This document shows, in pieces, positions 691-20,206 of a stretch of DNA of 25,486 nucleotides (its first letter is position 1; every line of letters begins with the position of its first letter). The notes beneath the pieces are model-generated. The model did no database searches. It was not told where the DNA came from and saw only the letters and a program-made list of their open reading frames with translations. The DNA is taken from the IMG/VR virus record IMGVR_UViG_3300010885_026285, positions 1 through 25,486 of that record. One strand, written 5' to 3'. The position numbers and the translations under genes were made by a program. The stretch comes from a virus.

Positions 691-2127
691 TTATTGTTCT
701 TCGTCGGAATGAAGATCGTTCAATAGTTGTCTTAACTTGCTACTTTCCACCGTGGCTCTTACTTTGCCTATGTCGTCGCCCTTGGTCGGGTCTGGTTCTG
801 CTCTGGCATCTGTGGCTGTTCCATCGCCAGTAATTTTGCTCTTTTGTTTTAAAGAGTCATACACCGTGGATGTTTGTTTTTTGAACTGATTATGTTCTGC
901 ATCTTCTTCCAAGCTCTTTATTCTTAGCGTATCCACATCAAATTCCAAGTCGACTTTCTGACCCACGCCACTAGAACTCCTAGTTTTCATGAACTGCAAT
1001 TGATATCTGCCACGCTCTTTCATTGCTCGGCTAGTGAATATACCAAACACGTTATCCGCTGTTTGTACCTTGGACAGTCCGCCTGCTATGTGACTGTGAT
1101 CAAACTCTATTTCTTCTACAGATGCCCTGTTTAACTGAGATGCTGTGGCCATTAGCAATTTTGATTCTACGGCTAGATTTCTAAGTTCTTCTGAAACATA
1201 TTTGTCTTTTATGAACAAGTCTGCTGGTGAAACTTTTTTGCTTTTTGGCATCATGAGATCCAAATAATCAATTAATATACAATCCACTTTCTTTTTAGTT
1301 TTAAGTTCTAGTTCTTTTAGATATGTTTTAATATCTAATACTGTGCTGCCCGATGGCAAATATTTAATTTGTAAATTTCCTGATTTTTTAGCCAATAACT
1401 TAATCTTCATCTCTACGTTCTCTATTTCTGGAAAAATTTTTCTTGTGGGTATATTGGTTATCATAGAATCCATTCTCATAGCCACTAGCATCTCGCTCAA
1501 CTCAAAACTTATATAACAACAATTCAACCCCGCACTTGCCCAATTAACTGCTAGATTCTGTAAAAATAAAGATTTACCTGCACCCGACCCACCTGCAAAT
1601 ATGTTTAATTCTCCTCTATTGAACCCACCAAACAGTTTCTTATCAATGTTTGCCCAGCCAGTGCTGATTTGTCCGTTGGAATTTTTTAATCGCTCTAATC
1701 TACCTTTGGGATCTTCAAAATAATCTGTACCTATGTCTCTGGTCAATCCAATATTGACCGCTGCCTTGACTTTGTCTTCTACCGGTGCGTAATCACCCTT
1801 CTCTAATAGATCTGCAGATTCTAATATGGCACGTTCTAATGCTTTGTGTCGAGAAAAGGTTTCAAATTCGTCCAGCAACCAATTAAAATGAGAAGGATCC
1901 AGATCCTTGGCTGTTTTTAATTTTATATCAAATTTTGCATTAACTTGCTCTACCTCTGGCAGCACTTTGTATTGCTCGCTGTAATCTTTGATAAACTTGG
2001 CAATAGGTATTAACTTTCTATCAAAATTATTGCTGTCAAAAATATTCTGAGCCCTAGCAAAAGATTCTGCATCAGCCAGCAACATTTCCAAATATAACTT
2101 CTGTACATCAAAAGTATAATCAGCCAT
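691..2127 (-). CDS. 41: replicative DNA helicase, T4 gp41-like
   Basis: A 478-residue DnaB-family hexameric helicase that unwinds DNA 5'-3' at the phage replication fork together with the gp61 primase. The N-terminal helical part (1-140) is followed by a RecA-like core: Walker A GGSGAGKS at 179-186, Walker B ILIDYLD at 284-290 and an ATASQLNRAS segment of the DnaB type further on. Length matches T4 gp41 (475). The start overlaps the primase stop by 8 bases, indicating translational coupling and matching the paired function. The C-terminal 60 residues are charged and low in complexity, probably a flexible tail. Confidence 0.95.
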   Translation of the reverse strand: MADYTFDVQKLYLEMLLADAESFARAQNIFDSNNFDRKLIPIAKFIKDYSEQYKVLPEVEQVNAKFDIKLKTAKDLDPSHFNWLLDEFETFSRHKALERAILESADLLEKGDYAPVEDKVKAAVNIGLTRDIGTDYFEDPKGRLERLKNSNGQISTGWANIDKKLFGGFNRGELNIFAGGSGAGKSLFLQNLAVNWASAGLNCCYISFELSEMLVAMRMDSMITNIPTRKIFPEIENVEMKIKLLAKKSGNLQIKYLPSGSTVLDIKTYLKELELKTKKKVDCILIDYLDLMMPKSKKVSPADLFIKDKYVSEELRNLAVESKLLMATASQLNRASVEEIEFDHSHIAGGLSKVQTADNVFGIFTSRAMKERGRYQLQFMKTRSSSGVGQKVDLEFDVDTLRIKSLEEDAEHNQFKKQTSTVYDSLKQKSKITGDGTATDARAEPDPTKGDDIGKVRATVESSKLRQLLNDLHSDEEQ

Positions 2128-3142
2128 TTATCATTTTCCTTCTCATCAAATCTATTTTTAATGCTGTAGATTCGGTAGATTTAAGTATTGATTGTAAAGT
2201 AAACAATCTACCATATTTTAACACAGCATCCGATGCATCTACAACCTTTTCTCCCCATTTTGGAAATGATACACTCCATCCAAATTCCACCGCTTGATCT
2301 ATTAGTTTTTGTCCAGCCTTGTCTCTATCTGGCACCACTATAACCTTTCTGCCCAATCCATTTATTAACTCTCTTTGTGTTTTGTTTATGTCTGATCCCA
2401 ATATTGCCACTCCGCCCAACACCATCGCATCAAATGGTCCTTCTGTTACCAAAACAAATTTCCTATTCCAATCCTGTGCATCCATGTTAAAAACATATCC
2501 CGGCTGTGTCTCTGTCCAGTATTTGATTTCTTTGTTTGTGGAATCAAACATCCTGCCAGTATATCCTACTATTTTGCCACGCCAATAAAAAGGAATTATT
2601 AGTCTTCTATGAAAATCAGATCCCTGGTCTGGAGAATAAAAGAAATCATACCACTCTGGAGATACTCCCCTTTCTTTCAAATAGTTCAACAACTTATCTA
2701 TCTTTTCATATTGCGTCTCTGTGAGATCTTTATCCACATATCTTTCTAACCAATGATCTAATCTAAAACTGTTTTTGGGTAACTCTTTTTCTTTAAAATT
2801 AACAAATTCTTTTTTTTCTACTTTTGTATCAGCTTCTTCATGACGCATTGCCTCTATGGCTAATTTCTTGATCACGTCATCGGCTATACCCAACCAGCCC
2901 ATTAATGTTTTCATTTTCAAAGATAACTTGCGACCTATCACATACGATGCTGTGTATCCACAATTGAAACAGTGATAACTTAAAGTTCCGTCGGCCGAAG
3001 TCATAAGACCCCCACGTTTCCTTTTATCTTGTGATTCTCCGTTGTGTACACAACAAGGAGCATTGAAACTGGTCCACCCCGATGGCGTTTTTTTACGTCC
3101 ATGTGGAAGCGACGTCAGAATTGTGCTCTGTATAAGGTTCAT
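2120..3142 (-). CDS. 61: DNA primase, T4 gp61-like
   Basis: A 340-residue primase that makes the RNA primers for lagging-strand synthesis in complex with gp41. The zinc-binding module has C30-x2-H33 and C58-x2-C61 in HCFNCGY. The TOPRIM catalytic domain shows VTEGPFDA with E234 and the metal-binding PDRDKAG with D272 and D274. T4 gp61 has the same length (342). The start codon directly follows AAGG, so its ribosome site is oddly close; no better upstream start is evident. It overlaps gp41 by 8 bases. Confidence 0.94.
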   Translation of the reverse strand: MNLIQSTILTSLPHGRKKTPSGWTSFNAPCCVHNGESQDKRKRGGLMTSADGTLSYHCFNCGYTASYVIGRKLSLKMKTLMGWLGIADDVIKKLAIEAMRHEEADTKVEKKEFVNFKEKELPKNSFRLDHWLERYVDKDLTETQYEKIDKLLNYLKERGVSPEWYDFFYSPDQGSDFHRRLIIPFYWRGKIVGYTGRMFDSTNKEIKYWTETQPGYVFNMDAQDWNRKFVLVTEGPFDAMVLGGVAILGSDINKTQRELINGLGRKVIVVPDRDKAGQKLIDQAVEFGWSVSFPKWGEKVVDASDAVLKYGRLFTLQSILKSTESTALKIDLMRRKMING

Positions 3143-3151
3143 CCTTATAGT

Positions 3152-3952
3152 TTAATGTCTGTAGAGTATTTTGTCAATTAAGCCGGTATTACCAGGATCA
3201 TTATCCCAGCTAAATCTAACGTATGTATAGACCCCATTAAAATTGAAATATGAGGAACCGGTTGAATTATCAAAAATAACCGGCGATTGATCGTCGTTGG
3301 TGGTTATATCAAAATAATCACTGTCTCCCGGGGTTTGTGACATGGTGCCTTGTATCCTAAGAGACCCTGTGAATCCTTTTGTGTAAACCGATATGGTATG
3401 CAATGCCATATTATTGTTTTCTCCAGGTGTGGCATCAATAGCCGAGCTAGTTTTTTTCAACGGTCCAGTGGTGCTAGTAAATTCAGAAACTTCAGTACTG
3501 TTAATCACAGCAGGATATGCCCCATCCAATATTTCTAAAGTGCCAGCAGCATTGTATGCTGCGTCTACAAATGTTATGGTCCTAGTATTGTCACTGGCAA
3601 TTTCTCTAATTGAATAGTTATAAAATTTAGAAGTTAACTGTAATAACTCTCCAGCGGTTATCGTTACTACTGCCTTTCCTTTTTTACTAAAAGTAGAACC
3701 ATCATCTAATATGGTTAAATTCTTTGTCAAAACTGATTTAGAAGATTCTGTGTCTATAAGATTAAATTCGTAATTTTTTACTGAAATATCCTGTGCTTTT
3801 TGATCTTCATTCTTAAAAGTAAAACTAATAGGGTTAGAAACGCCCTTAAACACTTTAATTCGCCTATCGTACACCATTGAATTCCTTCCATGATAACCAG
3901 TTGTGTAGACTATTACCAAGTTGTCTAGTAAATACCTCGATACAGTTTGCAT
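3152..3952 (-). CDS. probable virion structural protein
   Basis: A 266-residue protein without enzymatic motifs. It is rich in Thr, Ser, Asn and beta-prone stretches. The C-terminal NGVYTYVRFSWDNDPG followed by IDKILYRH resembles the beta-sandwich ends of structural proteins in marine T4-like phages. The middle part (about 60-110), with a GSTFSKKGKAVVTITAGEL stretch, looks like an immunoglobulin-like beta domain. A near-consensus late octamer lies 17 bases upstream, consistent with a late virion component although the neighbours are replication genes. Only a weak GTGAG ribosome site is visible before the start at 3952. Structural role is moderately supported; the exact position in the virion is unknown. 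Confidence 0.72.
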   Translation of the reverse strand: MQTVSRYLLDNLVIVYTTGYHGRNSMVYDRRIKVFKGVSNPISFTFKNEDQKAQDISVKNYEFNLIDTESSKSVLTKNLTILDDGSTFSKKGKAVVTITAGELLQLTSKFYNYSIREIASDNTRTITFVDAAYNAAGTLEILDGAYPAVINSTEVSEFTSTTGPLKKTSSAIDATPGENNNMALHTISVYTKGFTGSLRIQGTMSQTPGDSDYFDITTNDDQSPVIFDNSTGSSYFNFNGVYTYVRFSWDNDPGNTGLIDKILYRH

Positions 3953-3984: not shown

Positions 3985-4356
3985 ATGAATGAAATTTTTG
4001 AAACATTGAAAAGCAAATTTCCGTTTTTGTCTTTAATACGCAAAGGCGACCTAGAATACGTAGGAATCATACAAAACCAAGATAATGCAGTTACGAGCTT
4101 CTATGATTACGGCAAAATAGAACTAACCATTGGCAAAACTAAATTTTTACAACTTGGGGAAACTTGGTGGTGGGAATCCAATAGGAAAATACCTATTAAT
4201 ATATTTTTAAAGAAAGAATTTCATGTTTTTAAAGAAATACTAGTAACTCTGGCAACCAAAGACATTAACATAGTACACGGTCCTGTGGTAAGATTAGAAG
4301 ACATTTCTAAAAAAAGAGTCAAACGCAGAACAATACAGTTAATGCGAAGACCGTAA
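3985..4356 (+). CDS. conserved-looking hypothetical protein
   Basis: A 123-residue protein on the opposite strand from the flanking genes. It is mixed alpha/beta, has a distinctive ETWWWES motif at about 58-64 and ends in a basic tail (KKRVKRRTIQLMRRP), which suggests nucleic-acid or capsid contact. No known catalytic motif is visible. It is divergent from the structural gene across a 32-base spacer and ends 4 bases from the convergent DnaE-like gene. I do not recognise the family. The clean packing between two genes and its well-formed protein composition support it as real. Confidence 0.75.
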   Translation: MNEIFETLKSKFPFLSLIRKGDLEYVGIIQNQDNAVTSFYDYGKIELTIGKTKFLQLGETWWWESNRKIPINIFLKKEFHVFKEILVTLATKDINIVHGPVVRLEDISKKRVKRRTIQLMRRP

Positions 4357-4360
4357 TAAC

Positions 4361-4927
4361 TTAAATTTTATTTTTTCTAATTAGATTCATTTGCACAACA
4401 ATGGCCTGTGCGTATGCTACGGCATGTGATTTTTTAAAAAAATAACTGTCGTCTTTGGGTCTTTCCCAAACTTCTTTTAATATTTCTGTCCAGTACTTGT
4501 GCATCAGATGACGTTTAGCAGGTCTAATAATTGCCAATACCGCAGCCAGTTGTTCTATATTTTTTGGTTCTAATTTAGAAACGATGTCAAAATGTCCATT
4601 GATATGAAATAATTGATCTACTATATCTTTATCTTTTAACATATTCCAGTCTGGCTCCCCCAACATTAATTCTACTAATTCTTTTTCTGTTTTTATTTTT
4701 TCGTAGATACTGACATTAAGTAAATCTATTTTAAAGTATCCTCTTTCTTCTGCTTTTTTATAATCTAAACTACAATACTCATTTATAGGATCCGTTGGTA
4801 CTTCTTGAAAGTACACTCCTGTTTTATGTTTTTCTGATTCCTCGTCTTTGATTATGGACGCAGGCACATGTTTGAAAAGTTTAAGTGCCTCTTCTCTATT
4901 TGAAAAATCTATATCAACGTCTGGCAT
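4361..4927 (-). CDS. miniature DnaE-like (family C polymerase) protein
   Basis: A 188-residue protein colinear with the palm and adjacent blocks of bacterial DNA polymerase III alpha but far shorter. PDVDIDF (2-8) matches the PDFDVDF block with the first two catalytic aspartates. HKTGV (34-38) matches the KHAGGV block. FKIDLLNVS (65-73) matches KFDFLGL with the third aspartate (D68). LFHINGHFDIVSKLEPKNIE (106-125), with RP at 135-136, matches the FQLESRGM...RPGPL block, and KKSHAVAYA (165-173) matches NKSHSAAYA. The PHP, thumb-like, OB and tau-binding regions are absent. It lies in the replication block and overlaps the next upstream gene by one base (TAATG). It may be a vestigial, regulatory or novel minimal polymerase; activity cannot be inferred. 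Confidence 0.72.
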   Translation of the reverse strand: MPDVDIDFSNREEALKLFKHVPASIIKDEESEKHKTGVYFQEVPTDPINEYCSLDYKKAEERGYFKIDLLNVSIYEKIKTEKELVELMLGEPDWNMLKDKDIVDQLFHINGHFDIVSKLEPKNIEQLAAVLAIIRPAKRHLMHKYWTEILKEVWERPKDDSYFFKKSHAVAYAQAIVVQMNLIRKNKI

Positions 4928-5133
4928 TAGTTATATCTCCTTCTATTGGTTTCGCTCCTTATCAACGAACCGTTTTCTTTATCTATGAATTCTAAAACAT
5001 TAAGTGTAAGTTTATATCCCTTGCTTTCTTTTATTGGATCGGTGATCTCAGGCAGGAACACTTGTCCTATCTTGCCATTCTCTTTTATTACTATTACAGA
5101 ATCTCCTACTGCTAAATCTATACCTTCTTCCAT
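4927..5133 (-). CDS. small beta-rich hypothetical protein
   Basis: A 68-residue protein. I start it at the internal ATG at 5133, ten bases after the stop of the preceding gene, rather than at 5199, because the longer form would overlap that gene by 56 bases and begin with an implausible Leu/Arg-rich stretch. An AAGAAGA sequence lies upstream. The segment AVGDSVIVIKENGKIGQVFLPEI (about 9-31) looks like a small beta-barrel (KOW/SH3-like turn GDxVxV..NGKIG). The C-terminus is basic (ETNRRRYN). It is coupled to the DnaE-like gene through a TAATG overlap, so the two are probably co-expressed. Function unknown. Confidence 0.65.
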   Translation of the reverse strand: MEEGIDLAVGDSVIVIKENGKIGQVFLPEITDPIKESKGYKLTLNVLEFIDKENGSLIRSETNRRRYN

Positions 5134-5143
5134 TTCTATCTTC

Positions 5144-5830
5144 TTATTCAATTTTGGCCTCCTTAGCAGTCTCATTAACAAACACAGCATCGGCCGCATT
5201 GGTTTTAAATTTGTTTGACCAAAACTCCGGATTAATAAATCTTTGTACCATTTGTAATTGTTCGTCTGTAAATGATTTTAACATTTTCTTGCCGGCTGAA
5301 CAACCAAGCACGAGCCACGGAGATAGTTTACCAGTTTGTATGTGTTGCACTGCTCTTGAAGTATTAACCAAACGGAAATAATCTGCCCATTGTACATTTT
5401 GTTCTTCGGCCCAGTCCATCATGGTTTGTATACTTCTAGTTAGAGCAGCCTCTACCGGTTCGGTCTTTAATGAATCTATAAGATATGCTTCGTACAGATC
5501 ATCTCTGGCCCAATGATCTAATTTAATTCTAGAACGTATAACATATTCAATATATTTTTCTGGATATAGAGGATTAATATACATTAGATATCTACCAAAC
5601 TTTACAAAAGCATTATAATAAGAACTCTTGCAAAAATCTTCATAAGTTTTTGGTTTAGTATTGTTCTGATGTATTTGATAAAATCTTTGGAATACTAAGA
5701 AAGCATTCTGCACCCATTTTTCATTTCTTTGTAAATGTCTACGTTTAGGTTCACACACGTGAACTTGTAGGGTTCTTTCTTTCGTGAAACTCTTGCCACA
5801 AAATGTACAGGTGTTAAGATTGCTTTCCAT
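5144..5830 (-). CDS. zinc-finger protein of unknown function
   Basis: A 228-residue protein. The N-terminus carries a single C2H2/C2HC-like finger: C8, C11, H24 and C26 with the typical CGKSFTKERTLQVH spacing. The rest is mainly helical and rich in aromatic residues, with no visible catalytic motif. GAGG upstream supports the start at 5830, which overlaps the gp62-like gene by 17 bases. Its place between clamp-loader and polymerase-like genes suggests a DNA- or RNA-binding role in replication or transcription. I do not know the function. Confidence 0.8.
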   Translation of the reverse strand: MESNLNTCTFCGKSFTKERTLQVHVCEPKRRHLQRNEKWVQNAFLVFQRFYQIHQNNTKPKTYEDFCKSSYYNAFVKFGRYLMYINPLYPEKYIEYVIRSRIKLDHWARDDLYEAYLIDSLKTEPVEAALTRSIQTMMDWAEEQNVQWADYFRLVNTSRAVQHIQTGKLSPWLVLGCSAGKKMLKSFTDEQLQMVQRFINPEFWSNKFKTNAADAVFVNETAKEAKIE

Positions 5831-6260
5831 GGTCCTCTAGCAGTTGTTCTAGTTCGCTGTCGGTTATGATTTTATCCAGTGTTTCTAAATCTGATAGTTT
5901 GGTGTTAGGATAGATATCCATTAGAGTTTGCAAAGATTTGTTTGGAGTTTTCTTCATGGGTTTGACCCACGGATGGAACTGTTGTTTCAATCCACCGCAC
6001 ATCGATGTTAATAGCCAACATAATTTTTTGTGTTTGCTGCTCAAAACAAATAGATCCTTATTAACAAATTCGTTAATCATTTCTACATAATGTTCTTGAT
6101 AAAATCTATCTCCGGATACTGCCGAGGCATAACGCATGATCATGTATGGACTATATAACGATCTCTCATGATCATCTATTCTATCGTAATAATCTTTATT
6201 ACGAAAGTCTATGGCTTTCATTCCGTTTCTTAATTCAAAAAACTTTTTCTTTTCACTCAT
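5814..6260 (-). CDS. 62: clamp-loader small subunit, gp62-like
   Basis: A 148-residue protein resembling the short gp62 of marine T4-like phages. It has a tyrosine/proline entry (SLYSPYMIMRYASA, 35-48), a helical core with a YVEMINEF segment (58-65), then the basic FHPWVKPMKK block (95-104) that corresponds to KRFSPWLKK in the family, and a C-terminal helix. gp62 joins gp44 to load the gp45 sliding clamp. GGAGAG before the ATG is a strong ribosome site. gp44 and gp45, the usual neighbours, are not in the window, which lowers confidence. Confidence 0.6.
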   Translation of the reverse strand: MSEKKKFFELRNGMKAIDFRNKDYYDRIDDHERSLYSPYMIMRYASAVSGDRFYQEHYVEMINEFVNKDLFVLSSKHKKLCWLLTSMCGGLKQQFHPWVKPMKKTPNKSLQTLMDIYPNTKLSDLETLDKIITDSELEQLLEDHGKQS

Positions 6261-6495
6261 CTTCTCTCCACGTTAATGCAAATACGGAAGCATGTTTAGG
6301 ATTCTTAAAAGTTATCTCTATGTTCTTGCCTTTTAATTGGTACCCTTGTATGCTCAATTTTTTCTTTTTAGCATGATCCATAATCCAATCAATGTAATGT
6401 CGATTCATTAACACAGGTATTTCTTGATCATGGTCATCCGGGATCAGCAACACAGGCGCTTCCATCTTAACAACATTGTCTTTTCTTCTTACCAT
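6253..6495 (-). CDS. small hypothetical protein
   Basis: An 80-residue soluble protein with a basic middle (HAKKKKLSIQGYQLKGKNIEITFKNP, about 41-66) that may fold as a small alpha/beta unit. Its start overlaps the preceding gene by 7 bases and its end overlaps the gp62-like gene by 8 bases, so it is translated within the replication operon. GGGGC precedes the ATG at 6495; an alternative start lies at 6465. No family recognised. Confidence 0.7.
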   Translation of the reverse strand: MVRRKDNVVKMEAPVLLIPDDHDQEIPVLMNRHYIDWIMDHAKKKKLSIQGYQLKGKNIEITFKNPKHASVFALTWREDE

Positions 6496-6992
6496 ACTGC
6501 CCCATATTCTAGAAATTCTGATTGTCTAGATATGTCTTTGACAAAATAGGCACAAGGAGGATTATCGCCATCTGTAAGTGGAACAGCCAATATTTGTCCA
6601 GACTTAGTTTTAGGGAAGTACCATTTAACTTCTTGATATATGTCCACAATGTCCACTTCAGCGAAACTGGGTTTCGAATCTGTAATGGGATTGAACATAA
6701 AAGCATTAAATCCTCTGTCATTTAAACTGGTCAATGGCAACACATGCAATTCTCCCTGCTCGGGATCTCCTATTATCATCTTCCAGTCCAATGGCATTTT
6801 AATTTTATATTTTCCGATTTGTAATACGGCTGCCGGTGCATTAAAAGATTCTAAAAATATCAATGGTATAAAAAAATAGTCCGGATCTTCCGGGTTAGAG
6901 TTATCTAACACAGCAAATCTTAATTTGTCATCCACAAACTCCGGGATCTTTTCTAATATATAGGTCCTATTTTCTAATGTAAGGATTTTCAT
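6489..6992 (-). CDS. hypothetical protein between UvsW and gp62-like genes
   Basis: A 167-residue mixed alpha/beta protein with a conserved-looking centre, DWKMIIGDPEQGELHVLPL (69-87) and DRGFNAFMFNP (92-102). No nuclease, kinase or helicase motif is visible. It overlaps the 3' end of uvsW by 26 bases and the next gene by 7 bases, so it belongs to the same transcript. Its position in a block of recombination and replication genes suggests an accessory replication role, but the function is unknown. Confidence 0.75.
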   Translation of the reverse strand: MKILTLENRTYILEKIPEFVDDKLRFAVLDNSNPEDPDYFFIPLIFLESFNAPAAVLQIGKYKIKMPLDWKMIIGDPEQGELHVLPLTSLNDRGFNAFMFNPITDSKPSFAEVDIVDIYQEVKWYFPKTKSGQILAVPLTDGDNPPCAYFVKDISRQSEFLEYGAVW

Positions 6993-8436
6993 AATCTATC
7001 TTTTCTATATTATACGGATAATTGGCCTCTTTGTAAAACTTTTTTCTTTGCCCAAGATGTCTCTTTGCAAATTTACAACTGGAAGTTATATCCCAAATGT
7101 TAACGTGATCTTTGTCTTCTGCTTTTCTTATACCCCTGCCAATGCTCTGTATCACACGCACGAAGCTCTTACCGGGTTCTATCAATACCAAATTAAAGAT
7201 CCTAGGTATGTTTATGCCCACAGCAGCCACACCATAGGTAGCAATAATAACTTTGTGTTGTGCTATGGAAACTTCGTCGTAGTGTTCTTTTCTTTCAGTA
7301 TTCTTTGTAGATCCAGATATAAACACACTGTCTGGTATTTTCTTTTCTAGTAATTCTCCGGCAGATATTCTATCCACGAGTATCATTGTGTTGCCTGTGG
7401 CGGCAATATCTTCTATGGTTTTTGCGATCCACGACATTCGGGTCTCGTCGGTGGTCAACCATTTTAATTCTTCTTGATAATTTTTAAATTCTGGATGGTC
7501 TTGAGTTTGTAACACATTGACATTACATTGAGCTAACACTCCCTTGTCTTGTAATTCTTTGGCTGCTATCTTGTTGGTCACTTCTCCTATGCTGCATTTT
7601 AATCCAAAAAATTCATAATCGGCTTTGGGTACTGTGCCTGTGAGTCCCCAACGTATGCCGCATTTGGCAAAGGGTCCTGTTAACATTTTTTTTAACACAT
7701 CTGCTTTGGCCATGTGTACTTCATCCACTATTATGGTATTAATATTTTCTATGGCTTCTAGGAACGCAGTGGTCTCATCATCTCTGCTTTTCTTTTCTAA
7801 CACATTTAATGATTGCCAAGTAGCAATAGTGTTCTGCCTGCCTAACTCTTTTCTGTCTCCGTAGTATACTCCCACATCTAGATTACAAGCCAAGAAATCT
7901 TCTTCCGTCTGTGTTACTAAACTTTTATTAGGAACTATTGTTAGAGTACGTCCATAGTTTTCTACCAATTTACAAAGTGCGGCAGTTATAATTGTTTTTC
8001 CAGCACCGGTTGCAATTTCTTGTATGCATTGAGGATTTTCTAAAAATTTGTTTATAGTCTCCACTTGATAATCTCGTAAAATAACAGACTGCCCGGCCAT
8101 TGGATGATTTTTTGGCCATGTTATGTTCGAAAGATAATTTTTATCTATTAATTTAAATTCAAAATTATGTGGAGTCCTTTGATCTTCTAGTTCTACATAC
8201 ACGCCTGCATCCTCCAATATAGGTAGTATCTGAGGAACTAATGCAAGATATGTAGTGCCGCCCAATCCAAAAAAACTAACTTTGCCATCCCATCTACCCA
8301 ATTTTACTGCTGGTAGGTGTCGAGCATATGGTATTTCAAATTTGAATTTATTACTGAGAAATTTTCTATGCTCAAGAGAAAGATCTTCAAATTTTACATT
8401 TACTTCATCTTTTATTACTAGTTTACACGAACTCAT
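6967..8436 (-). CDS. uvsW: UvsW RNA-DNA and DNA helicase
   Basis: A 489-residue superfamily 2 helicase. It has an N-terminal accessory domain with GRWDGKVSFF (48-57), a Q-motif-like RDYQ (121-124), Walker A ATGAGKT (142-148), DEVH (238-241), GLTGT (264-268) and motif VI QSIGRGIRK near 436-444. In T4, UvsW unwinds R-loops and branched DNA and switches replication from origin-dependent to recombination-dependent. Length matches the T4 protein (about 500). It overlaps the next upstream gene by 4 bases (8433-8436). Confidence 0.95.
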   Translation of the reverse strand: MSSCKLVIKDEVNVKFEDLSLEHRKFLSNKFKFEIPYARHLPAVKLGRWDGKVSFFGLGGTTYLALVPQILPILEDAGVYVELEDQRTPHNFEFKLIDKNYLSNITWPKNHPMAGQSVILRDYQVETINKFLENPQCIQEIATGAGKTIITAALCKLVENYGRTLTIVPNKSLVTQTEEDFLACNLDVGVYYGDRKELGRQNTIATWQSLNVLEKKSRDDETTAFLEAIENINTIIVDEVHMAKADVLKKMLTGPFAKCGIRWGLTGTVPKADYEFFGLKCSIGEVTNKIAAKELQDKGVLAQCNVNVLQTQDHPEFKNYQEELKWLTTDETRMSWIAKTIEDIAATGNTMILVDRISAGELLEKKIPDSVFISGSTKNTERKEHYDEVSIAQHKVIIATYGVAAVGINIPRIFNLVLIEPGKSFVRVIQSIGRGIRKAEDKDHVNIWDITSSCKFAKRHLGQRKKFYKEANYPYNIEKIDYENPYIRK

Positions 8437-9710
8437 AATTTGCTTATCTTTTCAATGTCCCTCGACATCGGAGGACGACTCATATAATATAACTTTTTTG
8501 GCAAACTTTCAACTAACAAATCTAATTTCTGTACAGACATTGGCCAATATGGAAAATCCTGTATCATAAAGGCACATTTTAATTTAATTTTAGAATTTTG
8601 CAACGCTTTAGATATCCTGTTTCTCACAAACACTATTTTGGTATTATCAGATATTTTGCGATGAACCTTGCTCAATCTATAGAGATATTCTCTGTCTTTT
8701 TGTAATTCAGATTTGGGTTCTTCTCCCTCGAACATTGTAGGGTAATCAAAATCAAACCCAAAAAATATTTCTTCCATTGGAATGTTTACTTTGCTGAAAG
8801 CCGTTAGCCATTCTTTCATTTCGTGTACATCCTCTGGTGCTGTGAGATCTCCACCCACAGGGCATATTGCAGGTAAATCGTTTAATTCCATCAATGCACA
8901 CAAAAACGTTTCTTTATTGTATTTGTTCCTGTCAATGAATAGATTGCTGTTTTTTGAAAAAGCAATAGATTGTGCTAATGTTTCTGGAATTTTACGATCC
9001 AGGTCAATCACATCAATTTTAAATTGTTTTAATTGATCTCTTTGTCTAATATATGGCAGGTCTTTGCAATACATATTCCAATATTCTTGCAACGACTCTG
9101 GCACATTAATTAATCTAATTTGCGAGTCCTCTATCTTGCATATAGGCCATTTAAAATTCTTTTTTTCTTTTCTTATTTCTTCAAATTCGTCCAGCATAGA
9201 ACCATTTACTATTTTAAAATTGTATCTAACAGCAATCAAAGACACATAATAACACGACATGTCGGTATAATTCATTGTCCATTTTTTTGTCTCACCATCA
9301 TACATCATGGGTACCAATTCTTGACATTTCTTTTTAAGGCATCTGATCAACTTTATTATTTTTTCATCATAAGGAAATCTTACTTCTAAATATTGCTGTC
9401 CATCCTCGGCCGTGTATAACTCGATGGATTTTTCAAAACTTATAATTCTAAATGGTTGTTCAAATACAGGATTGTTGATCAACTGCTCTATACCAAAGTT
9501 TAGAGGCTTTAACAATTCAACGTATTTTTTTAATAAGAATACTGCTAATTTGCCTTGCTTCTCAGTCCATGCATATTGAGAACTTGCTAGGCTCATTATA
9601 GTTTTGTGTTCTTGTTCCAATAATGCGTTTTGGAAAAGACTGTCGTTATTATACGCTAATAATTTTATTACGGATTCCACAGTATCGAATGTTTTTTTCT
9701 GTGAATTCAT
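8433..9710 (-). CDS. UvsW-adjacent protein with HARP-like segment
   Basis: A 425-residue protein. I use the ATG at 9710, preceded by AAGG at a suitable distance, instead of 9770, which would add a hydrophobic tail lying inside the promoter region. Residues 108-160 read YLEVRFPYDEKII, then MMYDGETKKWTM, a pattern like the HARP/SMARCAL1-type segment (YD...I..I....yd...K.W) seen near SF2 helicases. No helicase motifs follow, so it may be a DNA-annealing or targeting partner for UvsW. It is translationally coupled to uvsW by a 4-base overlap. The resemblance is by eye and moderate. Confidence 0.72.
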   Translation of the reverse strand: MNSQKKTFDTVESVIKLLAYNNDSLFQNALLEQEHKTIMSLASSQYAWTEKQGKLAVFLLKKYVELLKPLNFGIEQLINNPVFEQPFRIISFEKSIELYTAEDGQQYLEVRFPYDEKIIKLIRCLKKKCQELVPMMYDGETKKWTMNYTDMSCYYVSLIAVRYNFKIVNGSMLDEFEEIRKEKKNFKWPICKIEDSQIRLINVPESLQEYWNMYCKDLPYIRQRDQLKQFKIDVIDLDRKIPETLAQSIAFSKNSNLFIDRNKYNKETFLCALMELNDLPAICPVGGDLTAPEDVHEMKEWLTAFSKVNIPMEEIFFGFDFDYPTMFEGEEPKSELQKDREYLYRLSKVHRKISDNTKIVFVRNRISKALQNSKIKLKCAFMIQDFPYWPMSVQKLDLLVESLPKKLYYMSRPPMSRDIEKISKL

Positions 9711-9741
9711 ATTTGACCTTGTTTTTAGATAATTATAATAT

Positions 9742-9770
9742 ACAATATAGCATATATGGTAAAAAGTCAA
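9742..9770 (-). promoter_or_regulatory. possible sigma70-like promoter for the uvsW operon
   Basis: On the minus strand TTGACT (9765-9770) is followed after 17 bases by TATTGT (9742-9747). The overlapping TATATT at 15 bases has a TGC before it, so it could act as an extended -10. The same TTGACTT hexamer context occurs in the porin promoter. The 77-base divergent gap also contains a plus-strand TATAAT (9734-9739) with TTGACC 15 bases upstream, a weaker candidate for the SprT-like gene. Confidence 0.4.
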
Positions 9771-9787
9771 TACTGTTGGTGGTTTTT

Positions 9788-10186
9788 ATGCAAAAGAGGA
9801 AAGCACTTAAATTAAGAAGAAAAATAAAAATAGCGACCATGAACGACCGCAGTCCTTATGTCACCACCAAACGATCTATAAATTTTTGGTTCAAATATAT
9901 CAATAAACAATTATTTGATGATCAATTACCTCCATTTGACAGAATAATTATTAAGAAATGGTTAAAAAAAGCCATCGGACAAGTATGCACATATCCTGAC
10001 AAAAATCCTAAAAGATTTGATTTGGAGATGTTAAAAAAATACAAGACAAAAAAAGAATTTATAGATACGCTGGCACACGAAATGATACACCTCTACCAAA
10101 TGGCTTGTCGCAAAGACACAGGTAATCACAATAAATTATTTTATAGTTTTAAACCTAAATTTAAATTTATTGGTCTAGAACTGTAG
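9788..10186 (+). CDS. SprT-like zinc metallopeptidase
   Basis: A 132-residue protein with the SprT/Spartan signature HEMIH (97-101), followed by a third zinc ligand candidate H114 in GNHNKLF. Spartan-family proteases cut proteins crosslinked to DNA, and SprT-like genes are recurrent in T4-like marine phages. I start at 9788, where GGTGG precedes the ATG; the longer reading frame from 9623 lies antisense to the UvsW-adjacent gene. A basic N-terminus (QKRKALKLRRK) suits nucleic-acid contact. It ends with a 20-base convergent overlap with the next gene. Confidence 0.82.
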   Translation: MQKRKALKLRRKIKIATMNDRSPYVTTKRSINFWFKYINKQLFDDQLPPFDRIIIKKWLKKAIGQVCTYPDKNPKRFDLEMLKKYKTKKEFIDTLAHEMIHLYQMACRKDTGNHNKLFYSFKPKFKFIGLEL

Positions 10187-10925
10187 ATTTAAATTCAGCG
10201 TAGGATATTATTTTTGTATTATTGTAACCAATGCCGTCCTGTAAATTATTAAATTGTTCTGGGGGATTGTCGTGAACCAACGTAAAGTTACAATAAGGTC
10301 TCATTTTAATTAAAAATCTTAATTGCTGGAACCATATATTGTAGAATGCTTTGTCATTTCTTGGACCGTAACATTCTGTTCCTTGGTATATGTTATTAAA
10401 CTGTCCGGGACCTTTATCTTGGAATTCAAATCCCATTAGATATAGATTCTTGTGACCATGCATACATGCCGTCCATGCTGCTGCCTTTCCGCTGGCCCAA
10501 AAAGGATTCCTGGGTATGAGAGATAATGTGCCAGGATAGCGATTTACTTCCAATGCCGGAGCATAACAAATACACTTTTCGTAAACTTTGTCGTCTACTA
10601 TTCGTTTGCTCATTTTTGAATCCACCATGAATAAAAAGTCTGGGATGAAATCTCTATACAATGCATTACAACCGTATGTTTGGCCTGTGGCTTTCAAACT
10701 ATTGAGATCAATTGCTTTACGTGATGGACCATTCCCTATGATATAAGCGTTGCCTCTTGCGACTGCCTTAACCTTGTCTTCATAGAAAGCAGTTTCTAAA
10801 GTTTTTTTGCCGCCTTTTATGGTTGTCCTAACCAGAACAGTTTCTCCTATGTAAGGTTTCCATTCTATTACAGGCACGTCTTGCACATATCTATAAACCG
10901 GAACTTCGTAATCGGGCATGGTCAT
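10167..10925 (-). CDS. GNGPS-motif protein, DUF115/glycosyltransferase-like
   Basis: A 252-residue protein. Its core, YIIGNGPSRKAIDL (61-74), CNALYRD (86-92) and FLFMVDSK (98-104), is the Rossmann-like GNGPS pattern of the DUF115 (motility accessory factor/sialyltransferase-like) family, which acts on nucleotide-activated sugars or adds sugars to proteins. The later LYLMGFEF fits the same fold. The start at 10925 overlaps the preceding transferase gene by ATGA. It is the first member of the glycan island read from the left. Enzymatic class is inferred from the motif and context. Confidence 0.7.
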   Translation of the reverse strand: MTMPDYEVPVYRYVQDVPVIEWKPYIGETVLVRTTIKGGKKTLETAFYEDKVKAVARGNAYIIGNGPSRKAIDLNSLKATGQTYGCNALYRDFIPDFLFMVDSKMSKRIVDDKVYEKCICYAPALEVNRYPGTLSLIPRNPFWASGKAAAWTACMHGHKNLYLMGFEFQDKGPGQFNNIYQGTECYGPRNDKAFYNIWFQQLRFLIKMRPYCNFTLVHDNPPEQFNNLQDGIGYNNTKIISYAEFKSTVLDQ

Positions 10926-11797
10926 ACTTTTATATATCTTTCTTCTAATCTATCTCTTATTCTTTTCCATGGCAGTCCTTCTTTAATTTCTTGCACTGTC
11001 CATTCTGTATATGCCATCTTGTTGGCCCAGTTTTTTCTGTCTGGCCTATTTGGATTTTCTATATTGCTTAACTCTTTATTTCCAACATCATAACACAAAC
11101 TTGATTCGCTGACAAACACAGGCACCCCGTTTATCACTGACTCAATGGCAGGATTAGAGGAATAATTTATTACAGTCCAAGCGTCTTTTAATATCTTTTT
11201 AAAATCTGTATCATCGTAGGTCTCACTGTCCATTTGTGGTTGCCCAACAAAAACATTTTCATATTTTTTTGCATCAAATTTAAAAAGATTTCTAGGATGG
11301 GGTCTAACCAATATTGGTCTTTGACTATATTTTCTAATTTCATTGATTTGTTCTTCTACCCAATTGGGCATGGGGGATTTTCCTTGCCATTGGTTGCTTT
11401 TATCGTGTTGTCCTAATATCACAATGTTATTTCCTGTATCACGCCACGGTTGCATCGTTATTCCAAACAAAGGCCAACGTTTGTCATCAAAAACATCATT
11501 GGCAAAATCTGCATCTCTATTGATGCCATTTATTGCCATTTTCCATGTGATGTTTCTTTTCAATCCCCCTACTTCAATAACCACAACAGGTTTGTTCCTC
11601 TTGCGAAAACCATCCCAAATTTTTTTATTTTTTGACATTCTACCCATCCATAACACAGACCATATTATGGCGACATCACAATCATTATCTTGATTAATGT
11701 ACACTTCTTCGCCTTTTGATTTAAGATGTTCTATCAATGCAGAAAATACAGGCCTGCTGTTCAAACTTCCGTTCTCGGTATAAATTGCTATTTTCAT
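10922..11797 (-). CDS. capsule-synthesis-like GT-B glycosyltransferase, paralogue 1
   Basis: A 291-residue protein starting at 11797, where ATGA overlaps the previous stop. The C-terminal half carries RPHPRN (165-170), SSNPAIESVINGVPVF (213-228) and the tail signature PDRKNWANKMAYTEWTVQEIKEG (252-274). The same blocks occur in the genes at 15062, 16035 and 19378, so the four form one family. They resemble the KpsC/KpsS and CDP-glycerol glycerophosphotransferase type of GT-B proteins, where an 'SN..iE....G.PV' segment lines the donor site. The expected role is transfer of a sugar or polyol phosphate to a surface glycan. Donor and acceptor are unknown. Confidence 0.7.
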   Translation of the reverse strand: MKIAIYTENGSLNSRPVFSALIEHLKSKGEEVYINQDNDCDVAIIWSVLWMGRMSKNKKIWDGFRKRNKPVVVIEVGGLKRNITWKMAINGINRDADFANDVFDDKRWPLFGITMQPWRDTGNNIVILGQHDKSNQWQGKSPMPNWVEEQINEIRKYSQRPILVRPHPRNLFKFDAKKYENVFVGQPQMDSETYDDTDFKKILKDAWTVINYSSNPAIESVINGVPVFVSESSLCYDVGNKELSNIENPNRPDRKNWANKMAYTEWTVQEIKEGLPWKRIRDRLEERYIKV

Positions 11798-12702
11798 TTT
11801 AATGTTGGCGGAACTTTCTTCCAATAATCTACTTCCCAAACATTAGCTGGCGAGTTTTCCATTTGCGGTCTAAGATCATTCCTGGCACTGCTGCCCAGTT
11901 GTTTTCTTTTACCCTTCATGTGATCTATGTATAATCCTAATTCGCTATTAACAAACACATGGTGACCTTTAACATTCTTTGCATATCCTATATCGTTTAC
12001 TTTGATATTATATTGTTTTGTGAATTGTCTCACTAAATGCCAAAACACATAACTGTCATGCCATTCTAACAATTTAAAAACGTCGTCGGTGCTATAAAGT
12101 TTTTCCCATTCTGCAGCAAATTCTTTGATGTTAGGATGATTTAAATTATATCCAACAAAACCACATTCGGGATATTTGCCACCGTCGTTAAGTGCAAATC
12201 TTTCTCTGCCTAAATAAGTCACCATGGTATCTGCGGGCAAAAGAGTTTCGATAAAACCAGAAGGCATGGGTCTAAAAGTGAACACGTCAGCATCTATCCA
12301 GACCACGTAATCATAACCAGCACTTTTTTTTATAGCATTGGTCACACAGAAAACTTTATTGCTAAATCTCACAGCGTCCCAAAGGTATGATCCTTTGTTC
12401 TTGTCCAATCCGCCCAATTTTTGTAATGCTACAGGTCTCCTAACACCATTCGGTATCTCTTGTAATTCTCCACAGGCCACTGGGTCGTCCTTGTGTTTAT
12501 TTTTAAATTTAAAGAGTTCTGGTTCTGCACTATTAAGGTCCACCCATGTGATCCTAGGATGATCGTAGTTGGGTTTGGGTTCTTCGCAATAAACAACCAA
12601 ATCGACTTCGGCAGGCCAATTCTCAGCGATGCTCTTGATGCCTCTGCCCGAGTAGGTATCCCACGTGCCTGGTTTATAAGAAGTAATGGCCTTGATTTTC
12701 AT
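11794..12702 (-). CDS. GT-A-like glycosyltransferase
   Basis: A 302-residue protein with WIDADVFTF (135-143), a DxD metal and nucleotide-sugar binding motif (D137, D139), after a preceding strand YDYVV. CGFVGYNLNHP lies further on, where GT8-type enzymes place the acceptor loop. The start at 12702 is chosen over 12750 because the longer form would run into the divergent methyltransferase gene; only a 30-base AT-rich gap with no clear ribosome site is left. It is coupled to paralogue 1 by ATGA. Predicted to move a hexose from a nucleotide sugar. Confidence 0.75.
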   Translation of the reverse strand: MKIKAITSYKPGTWDTYSGRGIKSIAENWPAEVDLVVYCEEPKPNYDHPRITWVDLNSAEPELFKFKNKHKDDPVACGELQEIPNGVRRPVALQKLGGLDKNKGSYLWDAVRFSNKVFCVTNAIKKSAGYDYVVWIDADVFTFRPMPSGFIETLLPADTMVTYLGRERFALNDGGKYPECGFVGYNLNHPNIKEFAAEWEKLYSTDDVFKLLEWHDSYVFWHLVRQFTKQYNIKVNDIGYAKNVKGHHVFVNSELGLYIDHMKGKRKQLGSSARNDLRPQMENSPANVWEVDYWKKVPPTLK

Positions 12703-12732
12703 ATTAAATAATGTATATTTACTTCGGCTAAA

Positions 12733-13326
12733 ATGGAAAAAATAATTCACGACTTACAATACATGCCCAAAGGTCACACGGGTCATTTATGTGGCACTAA
12801 AGAGGTTGTAGATGCTTGGTTAGATTTCTATAGTGATTTTAAATTTACCAATTTATTACAATTCGGGTTCAATACCGGGTGGAGTGCTGCATTACTACTG
12901 ACAATGTTTCCCGAAGTAAAAGTAACCAGCATAGAATTAGTTAAGATTGATAATTCGTCCAGAGCAGTGGACATATTGGAAGAACGATTCCCCGGCAGGC
13001 ACACAATACTTTGGGGCAACAGCATAGACATTGCTGGAGAGGTCATGTCAAATAATTTAAAAATGCCATTACCGATTTACGATGCTGCTTTCATCGATGG
13101 TGGACATTCCGAAGAAGTGACCGACAACGATATCAAACTCTGCAGATATCTAGGCATAAAGAATTTTATTTTTGATGACGTACATAATGATGAAATCAAG
13201 AAAGCAATAGAGAATAACAATTTAAAATTATCAGCAAAAAAATTTTATAAAGAAACAAAATATAAAATTAAAGGTTATGTGTTCAAAAATAATGTAATTG
13301 AACTCAGCGCCTATCATGTAAAATAA
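12733..13326 (+). CDS. class I SAM-dependent methyltransferase
   Basis: A 197-residue protein of the Methyltransf_24-like type. The SAM site LLQFGFNTGWSAALLL (41-56) replaces the usual GxGxG with GFNTG. VTSIELV (64-70) and AFIDGGHSEEVTDNDI (119-134) are typical of the family. In a glycan cluster it probably O-methylates a sugar or a pathway intermediate, but a small-molecule substrate is not excluded. It is divergent from the transferase at 11794 across 30 bases and ends one base from asnB. Confidence 0.82.
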   Translation: MEKIIHDLQYMPKGHTGHLCGTKEVVDAWLDFYSDFKFTNLLQFGFNTGWSAALLLTMFPEVKVTSIELVKIDNSSRAVDILEERFPGRHTILWGNSIDIAGEVMSNNLKMPLPIYDAAFIDGGHSEEVTDNDIKLCRYLGIKNFIFDDVHNDEIKKAIENNNLKLSAKKFYKETKYKIKGYVFKNNVIELSAYHVK

Positions 13327-13327
13327 A

Positions 13328-15061
13328 CTACATCTGCATATTATATATTTGTGCCCAAGATTTCAATATCAACGCAGGCACTCTGCTCTTTTCTTTTTGT
13401 ATGGCATTTACATATTGGCTAAAACAATCTTTAGTTGAATTAATTTTTGCAAGAAAATCAGTTAATGCAGGACTCTTTTTTGTCCATTGCACCACAGGAC
13501 AAGTCCAGCCGCTTTTGTATTTGTTTATTATGTAATCGGGCAATCTGCCTCGATAGGCCATCTTCGTAGGCAATTTAAGATTATTTTTGTTAATTTTTTC
13601 TTTGCTATGAATGCTCATAGCATATTTTGCAAAATGTTTGGTAGCCAAAGGAAACCTTCCTTCCATACTAAATGCCATCCCATAACTATCGTTTCTAGAA
13701 AAAAATTCTCCAGGCACCTGTGTAATAGCATCTAGCGCCATATATGATCCTACTGGATCTGCGGGATTCCAAAATAGTTCTTCTGGATATAATAACATTA
13801 ATTGTGTTTTTATTTCTTCCCCATCGATATCGTTGTTGGCGAATCTTATAGGATTTTTTATTCTTTTCATCCATTGGTCTATCACAGCAGACCAAGAGTC
13901 CATTTTTAATTCTCCGAGATCCAGGCCTTGTATCATATTCCAATACTTAGGATAACCACCCAACAATTCATCTCCCATATCGCCGGCCATGGTTACTGTT
14001 ATGCCATTTTCGCTGAGAAATTTATTAGTGTAGTAATACATGACTTGGCTCTGATTGTAAACTGGTTGCTCCATTGAGTATATGGCTTTATTCCAGTTCT
14101 CTAATATAACCTCGGGGGTTATAGGTATTTCTGTGTGATCAAATGCATTGGCCCTTGCTAACTTGCTTGCTGTACTAGCATCGCTGTTTAAATCTTCCGA
14201 GCCAATGAAAACTGGCGGCATAAAGGAATTTGTGAATGTTCTTACGTGGCCATGCAATTGTTTTAACTCGTATGCTATTATACTACTATCTAATCCCCCG
14301 CTGAGAAATACTCCAATCCTTTTTTGTCCTATACTGGTCATTGCGATTGATTTTTTAAAAATATTTCTATATTCTTCTGCATCAAATTTTGTATTAGAGG
14401 TAGGTGTCTTATGATCTAGATAATTGGCAACAAAACGTTTAGACAAACAATCATATACTCTTGATTCACCCGGCATCAATTTTGATACGTTTGAAAAAAA
14501 AGTATTACGCATGGCATTGATTCCTGTTAACGATAAACAGTTTAATGCTAATCTATCCACTTGCCTGCTTCCGGGTACTCGATCCAACATACCTTTGATC
14601 TCAGACCCAAAAATTAATCCTTCTCTCACCTCGGCATAATATAATGGCTTGATACCATGATAACCCCTACTGATCAACAAATGATTCTTCTTAATATCAT
14701 AATAAGCAAAAGCATGCATGGAATCCATCTGCTTAACAAACTCATAACCATGGATATCCAATCCCCAAGCCAGCAGTTCAGTATCACATTTAGTTTTGGG
14801 GATAAATTTGTCTTGATAGTGTTCTAATAGGTCGTAGTAATTAAAAATTTCGCCATTGTACACCAATATGTTGCCAGCCGGCGTCTTCCACGGTTGCAGA
14901 GAATTTTTAGCATCGTCGGTTATGGCTAGAAGATTGTGACCCAGTGTGATATAATCGTTGTTCCAAATACCGTTACCATCTGGTCCTCTGTGGGAACAAA
15001 TTTTAATATAATCTGCTATTGCTTCTCGATTATTTTCTGTTATTCCATATATGCCACACAT
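13328..15061 (-). CDS. asnB: glutamine-hydrolysing asparagine synthetase
   Basis: A 577-residue two-domain enzyme. The N-terminal glutaminase begins MCGIYG with the catalytic Cys2 and has CSHRGPDG (22-29) and VYNGEIFNYY (67-76). The synthetase domain has the PP-loop SGGLDSS (254-260) and AGDMGDELLGGY further on. In glycan clusters such enzymes often amidate uronic acids rather than make free asparagine, as in O-antigen loci; I infer that possibility from context. It follows the preceding gene without a gap: the TAA is directly followed by ATG. Confidence 0.93.
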   Translation of the reverse strand: MCGIYGITENNREAIADYIKICSHRGPDGNGIWNNDYITLGHNLLAITDDAKNSLQPWKTPAGNILVYNGEIFNYYDLLEHYQDKFIPKTKCDTELLAWGLDIHGYEFVKQMDSMHAFAYYDIKKNHLLISRGYHGIKPLYYAEVREGLIFGSEIKGMLDRVPGSRQVDRLALNCLSLTGINAMRNTFFSNVSKLMPGESRVYDCLSKRFVANYLDHKTPTSNTKFDAEEYRNIFKKSIAMTSIGQKRIGVFLSGGLDSSIIAYELKQLHGHVRTFTNSFMPPVFIGSEDLNSDASTASKLARANAFDHTEIPITPEVILENWNKAIYSMEQPVYNQSQVMYYYTNKFLSENGITVTMAGDMGDELLGGYPKYWNMIQGLDLGELKMDSWSAVIDQWMKRIKNPIRFANNDIDGEEIKTQLMLLYPEELFWNPADPVGSYMALDAITQVPGEFFSRNDSYGMAFSMEGRFPLATKHFAKYAMSIHSKEKINKNNLKLPTKMAYRGRLPDYIINKYKSGWTCPVVQWTKKSPALTDFLAKINSTKDCFSQYVNAIQKEKSRVPALILKSWAQIYNMQM

Positions 15062-16045
15062 TTAGAATCCTAATTTCTGTTTAAATCTACGAAACACTGT
15101 GCCATCTTTGATCTCTTGTGTTGTCCACATTTTATAACCAAGGTCATTGAGCCATTGTGTCCTGTCGGGATATTCTGGGTTTTCTATGTTTTTTAAATCC
15201 TTATTAGCCACGGGCCAACAAATAGCGAGATCAGAAGTGCAAAACGTAGGTATGCCTCTTACACAACTGTCGGTGCTTGCAGTTGAATTATGAGTGACCA
15301 CCGCATGACAAGTTGATATAGCTTCTTGAAAATTAAATCTATAATATTTTTTTGAATCTCCTTGAAAATATTTTGGACCTATTATTACCTGCACATCTTT
15401 AGGAAATTCTCCAATTCTGTTTTCCATTGCTGCCATGTGATTAGGATGCGGCCTAACCAAAAACGGTCTAGATGTCAAGGGCCTTAATTTGTTATACACA
15501 TCTTTAAACCAATCCACGGGGTCAAGTTCATTCATGCTCCAATTGTCCTTAGGCTGCAATACAAAAAGTATTGGATCGTTTGTGTTTGATTTCCTCCAGG
15601 GATCGTTTTTTATATTCCATAATTGTTTCATCATTTCCCAACGATCACCGGGACTATTATCTGATAGGAAATCTCCATTATTCATGGGAGAATAGAGAGC
15701 GACTCGCCAATGATGTTGGGGATGATTAATCACATTTCCAAAACTGCTGAGCAACCCACCATCAAAAGTTATAATCTTTGTACCTTTTGCTTTGGCTCTT
15801 TCTACCAATTCTAATCTTCTTCCTTTTGTATGATGTCTTTGATTGGTTCCTCCATAGCCAAACATACAACCGATGGGAGTTGTTGGATTCATTTCATTAT
15901 CTTTTGTTGGTCCTTCTAAATTTTCATTCACAATTATTGGATTGTCTCCGCACTTCTTAATTCCTTCGGCCATATACTTTAATAATTCCCAGCTCTCACC
16001 GCGTTTACGATCTTTTACCGTCCTTCTAAAAATTTCAACGTCCAT
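15062..16045 (-). CDS. capsule-synthesis-like GT-B glycosyltransferase, paralogue 2
   Basis: A 327-residue member of the four-gene family, with RPFLVRPHPNHM in the middle, NSTASTDSCVRGIPTF as donor-site block, and PDRTQWLNDLGYKMWTTQEIKDG near the end. Its longer N-terminus (MDVEIFRRTVKDRKRGESW...) differs from the others. GGGAGG six bases before the start at 16045 is one of the strongest ribosome sites in the island. The start lies 11 bases inside paralogue 3, so these two are translated together. Role as in paralogue 1, with probably a different donor or acceptor. Confidence 0.7.
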   Translation of the reverse strand: MDVEIFRRTVKDRKRGESWELLKYMAEGIKKCGDNPIIVNENLEGPTKDNEMNPTTPIGCMFGYGGTNQRHHTKGRRLELVERAKAKGTKIITFDGGLLSSFGNVINHPQHHWRVALYSPMNNGDFLSDNSPGDRWEMMKQLWNIKNDPWRKSNTNDPILFVLQPKDNWSMNELDPVDWFKDVYNKLRPLTSRPFLVRPHPNHMAAMENRIGEFPKDVQVIIGPKYFQGDSKKYYRFNFQEAISTCHAVVTHNSTASTDSCVRGIPTFCTSDLAICWPVANKDLKNIENPEYPDRTQWLNDLGYKMWTTQEIKDGTVFRRFKQKLGF

Positions 16046-16850
16046 CTAGTACCTCCCATGCATAGCCATTTATTATTTCCTCTTGTGTGAACTGTCCATA
16101 GGCCAATGAATAATAACAAGGTTCTCTATCTGTGTATCTGGGTGTTTCGATTTTTGAAAAATCTAATTCTGCAATAGGTGCGCAGGCATTCATACTATCA
16201 GTAAAAACAGGTATTCCTCTAGCAGTGGCTTCTATTGTTATATTGCTATTGAATGCTACTATTGCATGTGTGTCATTCCAATCTATCGGTGTAGATGTAT
16301 CTTCGTTATCGCTCGGTCCTGGCATTAATCTCCCTAATTCATCAATTTTACTGTCGGGGTTATATCCTTTGTTTCTTACCACGATCTCTCTATCGGTGTT
16401 TTCTTTTAAAATTTTTAATGTATTATCTAGCCAAGATTCTTGATTGAACATTACAGCAATACTGTGTGTGGGTGGACAAATAACAATCTTACTGCCGGTC
16501 TTTTTCCATGGTTCTATATTAAATGGAAAATATTTTTTAAATCTATCATTGGACCTGTCTTCTAAAAAATTTTTAGTATGACCATTTTTAGTTATTCTTA
16601 ATATTCCTGGATATTTGCGACTCTCCCCCCAATAGGGTCGATCCATAAAATAAAAATTAACACAATTTTGCTGTGCCCAATTGTAGACCACATTGGTGCC
16701 TCTCAATATTCCGAATAGCACAACCTTGGTTGCATCTTTCTGTGCAATAACTTGGTCCCATGGTAATATCTTTGATCCGGGCAAACCCTGCTGTGCTGCC
16801 AGCATGTATCTCTCAGTGGCCGGTCTATCTGTCTTGCTAATATAAATCAT
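16035..16850 (-). CDS. capsule-synthesis-like GT-B glycosyltransferase, paralogue 3
   Basis: A 271-residue member of the family. It is most like the gene at 19378 along its whole length: MDRPYWGESR against TDTPYFGRFD, LEDRSNDRFKKY against IKDCPSDRFDKF, ESWLDNTLKILKENTDRE against PNWLDDTVKEIKRHTDRP. Donor-site block NSNITIEATARGIPVF and tail REPCYYSLAYGQFTQEEIINGY are present. The first aspartate of the PDR tail motif is kept as TDR. It starts at a 35-base divergent spacer with no clear ribosome site. Confidence 0.7.
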   Translation of the reverse strand: MIYISKTDRPATERYMLAAQQGLPGSKILPWDQVIAQKDATKVVLFGILRGTNVVYNWAQQNCVNFYFMDRPYWGESRKYPGILRITKNGHTKNFLEDRSNDRFKKYFPFNIEPWKKTGSKIVICPPTHSIAVMFNQESWLDNTLKILKENTDREIVVRNKGYNPDSKIDELGRLMPGPSDNEDTSTPIDWNDTHAIVAFNSNITIEATARGIPVFTDSMNACAPIAELDFSKIETPRYTDREPCYYSLAYGQFTQEEIINGYAWEVLDGR

Positions 16851-16885
16851 TTTACTAATAATTATCCAGTTAAATAAATTGTAAA

Positions 16886-18703: not shown

Positions 18704-18737
18704 TGTTTTTTTAATAATTATACTATAAAATAGACAA

Positions 18738-20190: not shown

Positions 20191-20206
20191 GAATAATTAA
20201 TATATC

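Follow-up and report, generated by a model that had tools for sequence, protein, structure and literature searches.

The closest described counterparts of the locus analysed here are found in jumbo phages. Iyer et al. 2021 (PMC7824862) reported that group 2.2 jumbo phages carry a "phage-specific minimal version" of the alpha subunit of DNA polymerase III (Pol III alpha), which comes as two proteins, an N-terminal one that binds NTP and a C-terminal one that binds Mg and the template; their genes lie far apart in genomes that also encode a family B polymerase. The same authors proposed that this minimal Pol III alpha resembles an ancestral family C enzyme. A truncated alpha subunit had already been noted in the CBB and Atu_ph07 papers, and no report of experimental work on the split minimal Pol III alpha was found in the literature. 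A two-gene DnaE is also present in Tenacibaculum phage Larrie (Cbastvirus), where the break falls in the same palm loop (PF07733 position 98/100); unlike the system described here, the Larrie halves are full-size (515 and 676 aa), contain the PHP, fingers and HhH parts and are encoded by adjacent genes. The N gene of Larrie also has an extra tail of ~50 aa, which appears intein-like by eye and contains no Pfam intein domain.

The window (the whole stretch of 25,486 nucleotides that was analysed) encodes a 188-aa protein of this kind, hereafter the C-half (Table 1). As in the split Pol III alpha of group 2.2, the putative Mg- and template-binding C-half is a chain of its own; in the isolate genomes with a homologue of it, the NTP-binding N-half is encoded far away and a family B polymerase is also present. 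In contrast to the group 2.2 isolates, the window comes from an uncultured, mostly aquatic clade that is 34-54% identical to the isolate homologues, its close relatives add a complete PHP-less DnaE-like gene, and the window's contig carries no N-half. Judging from its description and from the taxon (Atu_ph07 is in group 2.2), the C-terminal protein of PMC7824862 most likely corresponds to PHROG 11778, the family of the C-half. The initial annotation had considered a family C relative beside the family B polymerase of a T4-like phage as unexpected; this co-occurrence is the rule in this jumbo group, as was published in 2021, and the term "T4-like" holds only loosely, given that the replication genes are of T4 type whereas the phages are relatives of Rak2-like jumbo phages. 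The split minimal Pol III alpha is already known, and our analysis adds a fixed gene order, the thumb and finger losses and, in the marine relatives of the window, a neighbouring gene for a 563-aa DnaE-like protein, as well as, from the alignments, an apparent loss of the fingers arginines and a near-invariant Glu at the position of E. coli R390.

Table 1. Coordinates of the features discussed; positions are those of the window unless a locus (L) is named.
Position	Strand	Feature
691..2127	-	DnaB-like replicative helicase (T4 gp41-like)
2120..3142	-	DNA primase (T4 gp61-like)
3152..3952	-	Weak virion-structural PHROG match; between C-half and primase in most relatives
3985..4356	+	Convergent small gene, PHROG 11637, function not annotated
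4361..4927	-	C-terminal half of split minimal family C (Pol III alpha-like) polymerase core, PHROG 11778; ATG 4927, stop 4361
4904..4927	-	MPDVDIDF, extreme N-terminus of C-half: catalytic D3, D5 (E. coli D401, D403), D7 (D405)
4814..4828	-	HKTGV: H34, G37 (E. coli H511, G514)
4709..4735	-	FKIDLLNVS: K66 and third catalytic aspartate D68 (E. coli K553, D555)
4511..4606	-	HINGHFDIVSKLEPKNIEQLAAVLAIIRPAKR: finger base; R135-P136 (E. coli R639-P640)
4409..4435	-	KKSHAVAYA: C-terminal finger motif; H168 (E. coli H760)
4927..5199	-	90-aa ORF immediately upstream of C-half, no family
5144..5830	-	C2H2 zinc-finger-like protein, PHROG 11058, same position in relatives
5814..6260	-	PHROG 11758 protein, function not annotated, syntenic
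6489..6992	-	PHROG 11279 protein, function not annotated, syntenic
6967..8436	-	UvsW-like DNA helicase
9623..10186	+	SprT-like metallopeptidase
10167..24427		Surface-sugar-type gene cluster
10922..11839, 15062..16045, 16035..16850, 19378..20190		Four paralogous proteins of the cluster
L033:17086..18774; also L038, L040, L041, L043, L044, L063, L081, L083		563-aa DnaE-like gene of marine relatives
L029, L035, L060, L062, L068, L084		563-aa DnaE-like gene, partial
L115:5146..8726		Two-gene DnaE of phage Larrie

The C-half reads MPDVDIDF...HKTGV...FKIDLLNVS...HINGHFDIVSKLEP...RP...KKSHAVAYA and is matched over its full length by PHROG 11778 "DNA polymerase" (residues 3-187 on positions 8-195 of a profile of 197, E 5e-66). 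Its other, weaker PHROG matches are to phage family C polymerase profiles only, and Pfam alone gave a sub-threshold match to the Pol III alpha finger domain. The five DnaE-like blocks recognised in the initial annotation were recovered in order when a C-half family profile was compared with all PDB sequences, which retrieved Pol III alpha alone, weakly (E 0.07-0.9). Profile-profile comparison (hhalign) with a small DnaE alignment aligned residues 32-139 with E. coli 509-643 (prob 93.7, E 1.8e-7), an unrelated profile used as control scoring a prob of 0.3. The AlphaFold2 model of the protein, built from 46 sequences, reached a pLDDT of 92.4 and a pTM of 0.78, and a Foldseek search of the PDB with this model placed family C polymerases at all of ranks 1-15 (best E 5.9e-4, prob 1.00), with modest TM-scores of 0.53-0.55 (TMq of the best about 0.53), the first non-family-C match appearing only at E about 1. 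We confirmed 425 relatives in IMG/VR, the C-half was present in 12/12 isolate phages tested, and dN/dS was about 0.03-0.10 for close relatives with usable dS. The protein is thus a relative of family C (Pol III alpha), a chance resemblance being ruled out by the profiles, the fold and the constraint. A lack of any significant family C profile match, which the initial annotation had named as a refutation, was accordingly not observed.

Motif order (PDxDxDF, HxxG, KxDxL, RP, KxHxxxY) and the fold of the model are those of E. coli DnaE, and MPDVDIDF aligns with PDIDIDF of Pol III alpha. The three catalytic aspartates of family C, which had been reported as kept, are indeed present: D3, D5 and D68 correspond to E. 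coli D401, D403 and D555 and are invariant in 46/46 relatives that are 35-84% identical to the window's protein. The same 46 sequences are also identical at D7, H34, G37, K66, R135, P136, K138, K165 and H168, among which the invariant K138 is peculiar to the phage family. For comparison, five aligned full family C proteins are invariant at R362, G363, S364, R390, D401, D403, D405, H511, G514, K553, D555, R639, P640, R709 and H760 (E. coli numbering).

Alignment to E. coli DnaE (L091) defined what the C-half has lost. The strong compression described previously is real, the E. coli span of about 399-775 being shrunk to 188 residues. The thumb (E. coli D405 to H511, about 80 residues before the HxxG motif) is cut to about 25 residues, and the finger segment between R639-P640 and H760 is cut to about 30, a loss of about 90-110 residues that includes the LRRAMGKK arginines, E. 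coli R709/R710. By alignment, the PHP domain, the thumb and the long fingers with their conserved arginines are missing from the C-half, as are the HhH, OB and tau-binding domains of E. coli DnaE. Moreover, the phage palm is split over two genes: the palm strand with the R362-G363-S364 (RGS) motif is missing from the C-half chain and is borne by the N-half in relatives.

This N-half was found in each of 12 isolate genomes, picked from the C-half matches, as one ~170-185 aa protein with PF07733 (Pol III alpha NTPase domain). It belongs to PHROG 11127 "DNA polymerase" (about 175 aa), an assignment made on metagenomic members. Its profile retrieved Pol III alpha alone from the PDB (E 4.7e-7), spanning E. 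coli 285-393; hhalign against DnaE gave a prob of 97.3 (E 2.2e-11) and again stopped at 393, and the best 12 fold matches of the N-half model (pLDDT 91.5) were family C polymerases. All N-halves end within a few residues of "...EFL", and all C-halves begin close to the DxDID motif (a few residues away, 15 at most), at E. coli about 399. Since one half ends at 393 and the other starts at about 399, the halves complement each other and meet in a single palm loop. The dNTP-binding RGS motif is invariant in the N-halves (40/40), and the position of E. coli R390 is occupied by Glu in 39/40. A single-query search with the N-half of phage Phosso gave no match, and the profile search gave at least 598 stretches. 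The N-half, the C-half and a family B polymerase (PF00136) occurred together in 12/12 isolate genomes, and 7/7 tested IMG/VR N-half contigs above 200 kb also hold the C-half. The N-half gene is far from the C-half and adjoins the clamp loader in several genomes. The 188-aa protein would thus supply the C-terminal, metal-binding part of a core made of two proteins.

The N-half is not present inside the window, and any partner of the window's C-half would lie off the contig. PF07733 and a profile built from 12 sequences were also run on 20 contigs of the clade and retrieved only the 563-aa DnaE-like protein or a piece of it, apart from a weak sub-threshold PF07733 match in one contig (G010). Given that none of these 20 contigs reaches the clamp-loader region, the absence of the N-half there is uninformative. 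Six contigs of this clade, which are fragments, carry no family B polymerase. The N-half contigs share few genes with this clade, the best mostly 60-80% identical, and no link was made between them.

The C-half belongs to a conserved block, UvsW - PHROG 11279 - PHROG 11758 - zinc-finger PHROG 11058 - C-half - convergent PHROG 11637 - primase - DnaB, that is common to the window and to isolates from Sinorhizobium to E. coli phages, some members being undetectably diverged in individual phages. In most relatives, the PHROG 11637 gene points towards the 3' end of the C-half gene, and the two form a conserved pair. PHROG 11058 has its zinc-finger-like part at the N-terminus and lies close upstream of the C-half wherever it was detected.

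Taking together the homology, the fold, the conservation, the complementarity and co-occurrence of the halves and the gene order, we consider that the C-half is probably the part that binds metal in a minimal family C DNA polymerase core divided between two proteins, with PHROG 11127 as its partner; the same split-core proposal has been published independently (PMC7824862). We infer that the two halves associate physically, that the pair is catalytic and that it has a role in the infected cell. The C-half would bind PHROG 11127, the source of the first Pol beta-type palm part and of the GRGSS dNTP-binding loop, and the paired halves would rebuild one palm with a short finger base, and hence one Pol beta-type active site. 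In such a site the N-half would give the RGS loop and the palm strand, and the C-half the metal ligands, the palm lysine and the finger base; D3, D5 and D68 would coordinate two Mg ions, and the RGS serine together with K66 would contact the triphosphate. PolC grips an incoming triphosphate through two arginines and a tyrosine of the fingers and through a lysine and a serine of the palm (PMC9224347), and K66 and the N-half serine may be the counterparts of these two palm residues. Without PHP, thumb, full fingers, HhH, OB and tau-binding parts, the pair is probably non-processive alone, and it might depend on other replisome proteins of the phage (DnaB helicase, primase, clamp loader and clamp) for its grip on DNA and its processivity. 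Beside the family B replicase, it might serve in short gap or primer synthesis, in lagging-strand hand-over or in repair.

Against the split-core reading we counted the loss of the R709/R710 segment, the replacement of R390 by Glu in the N-half, the modest TM-scores and the fact that no N-half was seen in the window or in its close marine relatives, whose contigs stop short of the clamp-loader region. Catalysis is left in question by the disappearance of the fingers arginines and by the Glu that nearly always replaces R390. It is possible, although we regard it as doubtful, that the pair (~175 + 188 aa) is a working two-chain polymerase with the smallest family C core so far, in which K138/K165 would replace the lost arginines at the dNTP-phosphate site; it would act alongside the family B replicase, joined in the marine clade by a complete DnaE-like polymerase. 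If active, the pair would be a replicative-type polymerase of two chains and very small size and would reveal what Pol III alpha can do without. It would also bear on the ancestral-enzyme proposal of PMC7824862 and on why giant phages that already encode a T4-type polymerase have retained, under strong selection, another one of bacterial type.

The same losses could be read differently. With all the metal ligands kept, the thumb and the R709/R710 finger segment gone and R390 changed to Glu, the paired halves might be a nucleotidyl transferase that is not template-directed, in which the palm is reused and the dNTP-gripping fingers are lost, and which would act in end tailing or in transfer to a protein or small molecule. 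We find this unlikely, given that the template-side finger base (the RP and KxH motifs) is conserved and that the gene has the primase and helicase genes as neighbours in the core replication block. The initial annotation had also suggested a clamp or tau mimic or an inhibitor of host Pol III, for which we found no evidence. In the more general form of a regulatory decoy, the C-half, with or without the N-half, would bind host Pol III partners or the phage replisome and inhibit or recruit them with no catalysis, which would suit a small phage protein encoded in the replication block from which most of the enzyme is missing. A decoy would, however, not need three catalytic aspartates and K66 identical in 46/46 relatives, and from the known architecture of Pol III alpha its clamp-, tau- and epsilon-binding parts would fall outside the retained span; we consider this reading quite unlikely.

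In the close marine relatives of the window, a gene for a 563-aa DnaE-like protein, PHP-less but otherwise complete, lies downstream of DnaB, about 6.5 kb downstream of the C-half. Nine loci carry it at full length, and in six others it runs off the end of the contig (Table 1); its product matches PF07733 and PF17657, both above cut-off, and is 38% identical to one in huge phage LR756508.1. Between DnaB and this gene come a QueC-like gene (by eye) and an HhH-GPD/endonuclease III-like gene, a region that falls just past the left end of the window. In this clade, the C-half might work with, or be partly displaced by, the 563-aa polymerase, which occurs in the clade loci and was detected neither in the 12 isolate genomes nor in nine N-half contigs, where the sole above-cut-off PF07733 match is the N-half; no N-half was seen in the clade contigs. 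Nevertheless, these contigs are fragments without the clamp-loader region and the C-half of the clade is under the same constraint, and we judge such a partnership or displacement to be very unlikely. Finally, the suggestion that the 188-aa protein by itself is a complete minimal polymerase, drawn from the presence of all three catalytic aspartates in one short protein, is extremely improbable and was rejected, since the missing part of the palm, the strand with the RGS loop, is supplied by a separate co-occurring protein, the break falling at the same point in all genomes examined.

Other genes of the window deserve mention. A SprT-like metallopeptidase is encoded within the replication block on the opposite strand, and a surface-sugar-type gene cluster (asparagine synthase, glycosyltransferase 61, NAD epimerase and others) adjoins this block. 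Four proteins of the cluster, which belong to no Pfam family, are mutually paralogous at 22-32% identity.
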